Position numbers and translations under genes: made by a program. The notes under the pieces are model-generated. The model was not told the origin of the DNA and did no database searches. It saw nothing but the letters and a program-made list of their open reading frames with translations. Shown here piece by piece: positions 23,654-25,292 of a stretch of DNA of 32,017 nt (positions are counted from its first letter, which is position 1; each line of letters opens with the position of its first letter). Source of the DNA: Fibrobacterota bacterium (GTDB lineage: Bacteria > Fibrobacterota > Fibrobacteria > UBA11236); assembly GCA_023249635.1 (NCBI GenBank), contig JAHFCH010000055.1, positions 1 through 32,017 on the forward strand, given 5' to 3'.

Positions 23654-24616
23654 TTAATTGACGGGGGTTACGGAAGCGGGAGCCTTTGCGGGGGCGGGGG
23701 ATTGAAAAAGCCAAAGATTCGGCGCGCCGGGCTGTTTCAGCGCGCCGGGCCGCGTTGCGACGGGTGGGGTGTAAAGTTTTCCGTCGGCGCGCCGGGCCGC
23801 GCGATTCCCGACGGCGGGCGTCCGGATCCCGGCGCGGCGCTCGGGTAGCAAAGACGTTACGGGTTGGGATGAGAATACCAGCGATCCGAATTTTTCCGGC
23901 ATATGGAAGCTGGGCGCGCCCGTGGAGGTCCAGGATATCAGTTCCGCGACCCCGGGGGAGGAGTAGATGATGCGGTAGAAATTCAGGGGCAGATTGTCGC
24001 CAGCCTTGGGCGGCAGGCCCGATTTGGACCACGCGGCGAAGCCTTCCCAGGGCAGGGAGATTTCCACCACCATGCCGGTGTCCGTATCCGCCGGATTGTT
24101 GGCGGTGCCGTGCACCTTCACCGCGCTTTGCATGCCTTTGGGGGCCCAGGCGACGTCCCGTCCCTGCAACGGCGAAGTGAAGGAGAAATCCAGGGACGTG
24201 TTCAGGCAATTCCATTCCAACTCGAAATAATTCTTTCCGTCACCGTCCGGATCGAGGAAAAGTTCCACCACATCCTGCTCGTACAGGCCATCATCGTCGT
24301 GCTTGGTGACGGTATTCTTCACGTTCTTGCCGTCGGCGATATACGCTACGTACAGCCGGGTCGCGCTCCAGGCCACCAGCACCTTGGTTTCGGCGCTGGG
24401 TTTGCCGCCCGCGGGATCGTTATTGCGCAAAAGCCGCAGCGTATCCAGCCCCTGCCAACCGGCATCATCAAGGACCCCGTCGATTTTGAAGGCATCGGCC
24501 ACGGGACGGCAGGTATGCGTGGCGGGGAAAGCCAGCGAGATGGAGGCCAGCGCCAGCATGGCGGAGGCGCGTCGAAAACAGGCGACTGAGGCGGATACCG
24601 GGAAGTACTTGGGCAT
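23654..24616 (-). CDS. Secreted CBM9-like (DOMON-related) binding protein
   Basis: 320 aa from the ATG at 24616. A signal peptide (hydrophobic about 20-32) precedes a family-9 carbohydrate-binding-like domain (about 40-245): FKIDGVLDDAGW, TRLYVAYIADGKNV, YEQDVVELFLDPDGDGKNYFELEWN and MVVEISLPWEGF are the usual blocks, seen in xylanase-linked CBM9 modules and in stand-alone sugar-binding proteins. No catalytic domain follows; the last ~70 residues are Pro/Ala/Arg-rich and probably disordered. It likely binds sugar ends at the cell surface. The -10-like TATTTT ends 6 nt before the ATG, with no Shine-Dalgarno. Confidence 0.85.
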   Translation of the reverse strand: MPKYFPVSASVACFRRASAMLALASISLAFPATHTCRPVADAFKIDGVLDDAGWQGLDTLRLLRNNDPAGGKPSAETKVLVAWSATRLYVAYIADGKNVKNTVTKHDDDGLYEQDVVELFLDPDGDGKNYFELEWNCLNTSLDFSFTSPLQGRDVAWAPKGMQSAVKVHGTANNPADTDTGMVVEISLPWEGFAAWSKSGLPPKAGDNLPLNFYRIIYSSPGVAELISWTSTGAPSFHMPEKFGSLVFSSQPVTSLLPERRAGIRTPAVGNRAARRADGKLYTPPVATRPGALKQPGAPNLWLFQSPAPAKAPASVTPVN

Positions 24617-24719: not shown

Positions 24720-24735
24720 TGTGAGCGGGCTCACA
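24720..24735 (+). promoter_or_regulatory. Perfect CRP/FNR-family-type palindrome
   Basis: TGTGAGCGGGCTCACA has 7-bp perfect arms and matches the CRP consensus TGTGA-N6-TCACA at all ten fixed positions. It lies in the 172-bp divergent region between the CBM9-like gene (minus) and the gene at 24789 (plus). If the plus gene is leaderless, its centre is at -61.5, a classic class I activator position. Confidence 0.6.
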
Positions 24736-24774
24736 AGGCCCCCCTTCTCCCTTTCAGGAATCCGCAACTAGGGG

Positions 24775-24782
24775 TAGCTTTG
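24775..24782 (+). promoter_or_regulatory. -10 element TAGCTTTG (perfect TAnnTTTG)
   Basis: The TAGCTT core ends 8 nt before the ATG at 24789. It matches the Bacteroidetes-type TAnnTTTG at all fixed positions. There is no ribosome site in the gap. Confidence 0.45.
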
Positions 24783-24788
24783 GTTACG

Positions 24789-25292
24789 ATGCGGGAAACC
24801 CTCTTGGCCTTGGGCCTCGTTTGCCTGGCCAGCATTTCCGTGCCCGCCGCCCCCCAGCCTCCCTTCGAACCCGAAAACGGACCGGTCAAGGTCGCGTTCA
24901 ATTTCCGGAATACCAAGACCGATTGCCAGATGGCCCTGACCAAGGATTCCGTCGGCATCCTGCCGTTGGATTCCACCGCCGGTGCGCTGGAACCCGATGA
25001 CGAGAACGGTTTCGAGAGTGTCGTGCGCAAGCGGGCCCTCTCGGCCGGGGAACGCGATACCGCCGACATGCTGATGACCATGACGCGCTCTTTCAAGGGA
25101 CTCAAGCGCTACAAATGCACCAAAAATGATGGTTATGCCTTTTCCATCTGGAGCGATTCCCTTACCCTGCACTGCGACAATTGCTTTTCCTGTTCCGACG
25201 GCATCGGCATGTCCGAAGCCAAGATGCTGGCCCGCTTCGGCAAGCTTACCCTGTGGCTTTACCGTATCAAGGGTGAGATGCAGCCCGACTGA
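24789..25292 (+). CDS. Secreted cysteine-containing protein of unknown function
   Basis: 167 aa from the ATG at 24789, chosen because a signal peptide starts there (MRETLLALGLVCLASISVPAA). The mature protein has five cysteines: C46, C110 and a tight C129-D-N-C132-F-S-C135 cluster, which could hold disulfides or a metal. The rest is charged with no known domain (KDSVGILPLDSTAG, GERDTADMLMTMTRSFKGLKRY). It sits downstream of a perfect CRP-type palindrome and a TAnnTTTG -10, so it is the best candidate here for catabolite-type regulation. Its stop is 1 bp from the end of the convergent FkbM gene. Confidence 0.75.
   Translation: MRETLLALGLVCLASISVPAAPQPPFEPENGPVKVAFNFRNTKTDCQMALTKDSVGILPLDSTAGALEPDDENGFESVVRKRALSAGERDTADMLMTMTRSFKGLKRYKCTKNDGYAFSIWSDSLTLHCDNCFSCSDGIGMSEAKMLARFGKLTLWLYRIKGEMQPD

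Follow-up and report, generated by a model that had tools for sequence, protein, structure and literature searches.

The window analysed here, a stretch of 32,017 nucleotides, is contig C301 of a Fibrobacterota genome (G000; 6.75 Mb in 341 contigs). Its only exact match to TGTGA-N6-TCACA is the predicted CRP-type operator TGTGAGCGGGCTCACA, which occupies positions 24720..24735 and is assigned to neither strand. Downstream on the plus strand lie a predicted promoter element, TAGCTTTG (24776..24783), a predicted transcription start region (24786..24789) placed from the position of that element, and the conserved gene P0001 (24789..25292), the putative target, whose 167-aa product belongs to no known family and has a signal-peptide-like N-terminus by eye. 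The CBM9-domain gene P0002 (23654..24616, minus strand; Pfam CBM9_1, 3e-12) is divergent to it and represents a possible second target. The centre of TGTGAGCGGGCTCACA is 61.5 bp from the A of the P0001 ATG at 24789 and 111.5 bp from the P0002 ATG at 24616 on the opposite strand. Re-reading the sequence placed the palindrome, the element and the P0001 ATG, as well as the 61.5-bp distance, exactly where an earlier note on this DNA had reported them. Genes were called with a codon-model gene caller written for the present analysis.

We compared six genomes of the genus, G000 and five relatives (G001-G005). An ortholog of P0001 was found in all six, and the same search gave no match in seven other genomes; its relatives in named records were four MAGs labelled Fibrobacteres or Fibrobacteria bacterium. 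Four further loci (L123-L126), whose site and element offsets equal those of G005, G003, G001 and G002, respectively, probably derive from the same genomes and were left out of the evidence. Neither Pfam nor NCBIfam yielded a family for P0001 at E 0.01, and a profile search against solved structures returned weak, implausible matches only, mostly antibodies (best E 0.025). We utilized AlphaFold2 to model the protein from five sequences, which yielded a mean pLDDT of 38.9. In the alignment of the six orthologs, a cysteine cluster (H128, C129, C132 and C135) and C110 are invariant.

The palindrome is retained upstream of P0001 with at least nine of its ten specified positions in all six genomes (exact in G000, G004 and G005, one mismatch in G001, G002 and G003), the conservation in relatives that the earlier note had expected of a genuine site. 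All six orthologous upstream regions also contain TA[GC]CTTTG, located 47.5 bp from the site centre in G000 and G004 and 46.5 bp in G005, G002 and G003; in G001 it is 37.5 bp away, closer by about one helical turn. Mean pairwise identity across the six regions was 0.91 for the palindrome core and 0.93 for the element, values that are partly set by construction since both strings anchored the alignment rows (no ortholog was left out), compared with 0.27-0.36 for the spacer, linker and flanks. For each of the five relatives, the 300 bp preceding the ortholog were shuffled 4000 times, and only 6-13 of these shuffles produced a site with at most one mismatch. By eye, the TGA stop of an upstream reading frame falls inside the palindrome in G001 (L043) and G004 (L042).

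Exact palindromes number nine in G000, against none for a backwards-read control, while a dinucleotide model predicts about 1.5-1.6 for the genome as a whole and 0.007 for the window. Eight of the nine lie between called genes, where a dinucleotide model of non-coding DNA predicts 0.11; in the ninth, 5 of the 16 bases overlap a called ORF. These counts, together with the conservation in six of six genomes, bear out the earlier claim that such a match is unlikely to arise by chance. Allowing up to one mismatch gave 47 positions, compared with 8 for the backwards-read control. The 38 one-mismatch sites fall below the roughly 65 expected from dinucleotides, so that there is no genome-wide excess; we rejected this total as evidence and consider only the intergenic concentration of these sites informative (27 of 38 between genes, about 5.5 expected in intergenic DNA under the dinucleotide model). 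The model seems to overestimate coding matches, as it predicts about 31 for the backwards control, for which 8 were counted. At up to two mismatches, the window contains three matches, below the shuffle expectation of 5.48. We also inspected a hand-picked 432-kb sample (L099-L118 and the window; about 6% of G000, 12% non-coding), which, the window excepted, was not placed on known exact sites. There the TGTGA palindrome showed no excess and did not stand out from 30 permutations of its half-site (one intergenic and one coding match). Other palindromes do stand out between genes in this sample, such as TTGGA-N6-TCCAA, with six intergenic and three coding matches at up to one mismatch, and may mark the sites of another regulator. 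Exact TGTGA palindromes were also counted in G010, of the same order (20; control 4), and G012, of the same class (13; control 1), and 15 of the 20 in G010 have the form TGTGATNNNNATCACA, a fuller E. coli-like consensus.

A search of G000 with the HTH_Crp_2 profile returned six matches, three of which exceeded the cut-off: one sigma factor, as judged by eye, and two CRP-family proteins, P0003 (contig C125) and P0004 (contig C2). Each of the two has an N-terminal cNMP_binding domain (PF00027; 1.6e-26 for P0003 and 8.2e-25 for P0004) and a C-terminal HTH_Crp_2 domain over the cut-off (PF13545; 2.6e-16 and 7.6e-12), with recognition helices reading RETVSR and RESVSR, respectively, where E. coli CRP has RETVGR. 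The cNMP domain, the Crp-type HTH and an REx2xR helix suited to TGTGA half-sites place both in the CRP/FNR family, and the regulator gene anticipated by the earlier note is thereby present twice, with RE[TS]VSR helices. Both proteins score below the 266-bit cut-off of NF008732, the NCBIfam equivalog for E. coli CRP (126.4 bits for P0003, 96.3 bits for P0004). Counterparts of P0003 in the five genus relatives share 87-92% identity with it, and the protein had matches in all 31 genomes searched, its own included; the best match in each of 30 of these genomes carries RETVSR in 28 cases and RETVTR in two. The ligand pocket is partly conserved: Glu73 and Arg83 are invariant, and the residues aligned with the T/S at the pocket end in E. 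coli are S and N in P0003 and P0004 (by eye). Four class III cyclase domains are encoded in G000. Autoregulation of P0003 or P0004 was considered and found unconvincing, with two-mismatch sites at best: the 400 bp upstream of P0003 lack any site with up to two mismatches, P0004 has one two-mismatch site at -107, and one of the five relatives' P0003 genes has such a site.

Class I activators bind at about -61.5 or further full helical turns upstream, class II activators bind at -41.5, and in E. coli a class I site works poorly at -51.5. The class I spacing proposed in the earlier note is kept relative to the promoter-like element in five of six genomes and is about one helical turn off in the sixth, where 37.5 bp would put the site near -51.5; the figure of -61.5 itself assumes the predicted start. 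A transcription start at 24786-24789 is a reasonable prediction from the position of TAGCTTTG. The leaderless start that had been proposed for P0001 is plausible in G000, since G004 has the same six-nucleotide gap in TTTG-N6-ATG and signal-peptide-like sequence follows in both (by eye), but this arrangement is absent from the other four genomes, which have no ATG at that position and seem to have leaders. Among the sampled genes, one other, L100, has TTTG-N6-ATG.

The element also fits TAnnTTTG, the -7 consensus of Bacteroidota promoters (PMC7366714). Unlike in Bacteroidota, TAnnTTTG is uncommon in G000: the 200 nt upstream of 179 genes contain 14 matches, 10 of them in the last 60 nt, while the reversed motif gave nine matches upstream of the same genes, three of which fall within the final 60 nt. 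The idea that TAnnTTTG generally accompanies CRP sites was rejected. Two of the 47 G000 sites with up to one mismatch have it within 200 bp, one of the two lies inside a gene, and the window's site is thus the only non-coding one at under 200 bp. Among 22 sites of the five genus relatives, TAnnTTTG occurs at the P0001 and CBM9 promoters only, and none of the 10 exact sites of genus g2 has it.

Beyond P0001, exact sites in G000 lie upstream of the type VI secretion genes hcp (PF05638, 2.2e-36) and vgrG (PF05954, 6.7e-65), with a VipB/TssC gene roughly 1.3 kb from the hcp site on its contig. Others precede genes for an MBL-fold hydrolase, a sugar transferase/deacetylase, a BNR-type protein and unnamed proteins that look secreted, and one precedes a GH18 gene, opposite which is encoded a protein whose TPR match stays below threshold. 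The 16-mer TGTGAGCGGGCTCACA itself occurs once more in the genome, upstream of the sugar transferase/polysaccharide deacetylase gene (L007, G000:C298:31901-31916). In the relatives, exact sites are again present at the hcp, vgrG, MBL-fold and TPR-like genes, with the others at unshared genes. The six genomes contain 10 hcp matches, nine of which have readable upstream DNA; all nine have a site with at most one mismatch (six exact), 104.5-111.5 bp from the ATG. For vgrG, 12 of the 13 matches with upstream DNA (15 in total) have such a site (three exact), at 75.5-135.5 bp, and the exception, in G003, has two mismatches. Where the hcp site is exact, TAANTTAT is located 29.5 bp from its centre in six of six promoters, and the hcp site would fit the class II position of -41.5 if TAANTTAT were the -10 element. 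A second conserved element, GGGATCA...TCACAC, is found about 10-30 bp upstream of the CRP site in the six hcp regions compared (L009, L031, L044, L024, L025 and L050); it resembles a single CRP half-site paired with an off-consensus one, or else the target of another regulator.

The best-conserved members found of this predicted regulon are therefore type VI secretion genes, not catabolic ones. The earlier note had anticipated further palindromes at polysaccharide genes, and this held in part: exact sites do adjoin the sugar transferase/deacetylase and GH18 genes, but conservation is strongest at the type VI genes. In Vibrio cholerae, type VI Hcp depends on CRP and on cyclase, a tie between Hcp and CRP that would be shared here, but hcp there also needs RpoN and quorum sensing, and a direct operator is not in evidence in the accessible part of that study (PMC2726435). 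Here, by contrast, a conserved predicted operator is located at hcp and vgrG themselves.

Taken together, the site with its conservation and spacing, the regulator genes with matching helices and the genome-wide set make it probable that TGTGAGCGGGCTCACA is an operator for a CRP-family activator acting on the P0001 promoter with class-I-type geometry. The earlier proposal of a CRP-type operator accordingly stands as a well-supported prediction, given matching-helix regulators in the genome and a site conserved in six of six orthologs. The protein binding 24720-24735 would most likely be P0003, or possibly its paralog P0004, with a cyclic nucleotide as ligand, probably cAMP supplied by the class III cyclases. 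A dimer positioned about 60 bp upstream of the P0001 start would activate a promoter with the TAnCTTTG element in the class I manner, through an interaction with the alpha C-terminal domain of RNA polymerase. The operator would be one of a genus-wide set that also includes the sites upstream of hcp, with class-II-like geometry, and vgrG.

Mechanistically, this reading follows textbook lines. The TGTGA-N6-TCACA operator, the cNMP domain and the RETVxR helix are those of E. coli CRP, and an operator centred some 60 bp ahead of the putative start would match E. coli class I promoters. In contrast to E. coli CRP, to which they are 34% (P0003) and 26% (P0004) identical, both proteins fall below the equivalog cut-off, the promoter element is TAnCTTTG, and the predicted target genes encode secreted and type VI proteins. 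A CRP-family regulator of Mycobacterium tuberculosis (3d0s, 1.5e-28), which binds the same palindrome, ranks among the best full-length matches to P0003 from solved structures. It likewise has a RETV-containing helix, although this organism is distant and the helix reads RETVNK rather than RETVSR.

A rather improbable alternative is that the operator mainly serves the divergent CBM9 gene under catabolite control, as the earlier note had found sensible, with its proximity to P0001 incidental or the site shared by both genes. The CBM9 gene is divergent to the site in G000, G002 and G005, TATNTTTG lies just upstream of its ATG in G002 and G005, and the 111.5-bp distance in G000 resembles those at hcp and vgrG. 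However, the spacing from the site to the CBM9 start varies (111.5, 94.5 and 93.5 bp), and P0002 has matches in only three of the six genus genomes; in G001, G003 and G004, which lack one, the site stays beside P0001. A site kept at P0001 while the opposite neighbour changes suggests that it travels with P0001, and the earlier view of the CBM9 gene as the target is thus disfavoured.

Somewhat less improbable, though still unlikely, is repression of P0001 by the bound CRP-family protein, or its use of a ligand different from cAMP. Members of the family can act as repressors or answer to other ligands, and the S and N at the pocket ends of P0003 and P0004 leave room for the latter; the site, however, lies upstream of the promoter element rather than over it, at a maintained distance, and the invariant Glu73 and Arg83 and the presence of class III cyclases argue for cAMP. 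Chance, or a role as an RNA hairpin or terminator, is a highly implausible explanation of the palindrome. Its arms reach 7 bp in G000, so RNA from this region could fold, but the window sequence has no run of T directly 3' of the palindrome, the TGTGA/TCACA core is kept in six of six genomes while spacer and surroundings diverge, and intergenic sites are far above expectation.

A bolder reading, which we regard as speculative and rather doubtful, is that cAMP-CRP acts as a master switch of contact-dependent antagonism in the genus, driving hcp and vgrG along with lineage-specific secreted proteins including P0001, which may share an attack or prey-use programme with them. Judged by the entries listed from open PubMed Central papers (10 of 335 for the broadest query), no CRP regulon in Fibrobacter or Fibrobacteres was apparent. 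The predicted site set thus makes a CRP regulon accessible to testing in a phylum where our open-literature search showed none, and it would tie type VI secretion genes and the unfamiliar secreted protein family P0001 to one probable second-messenger signal.
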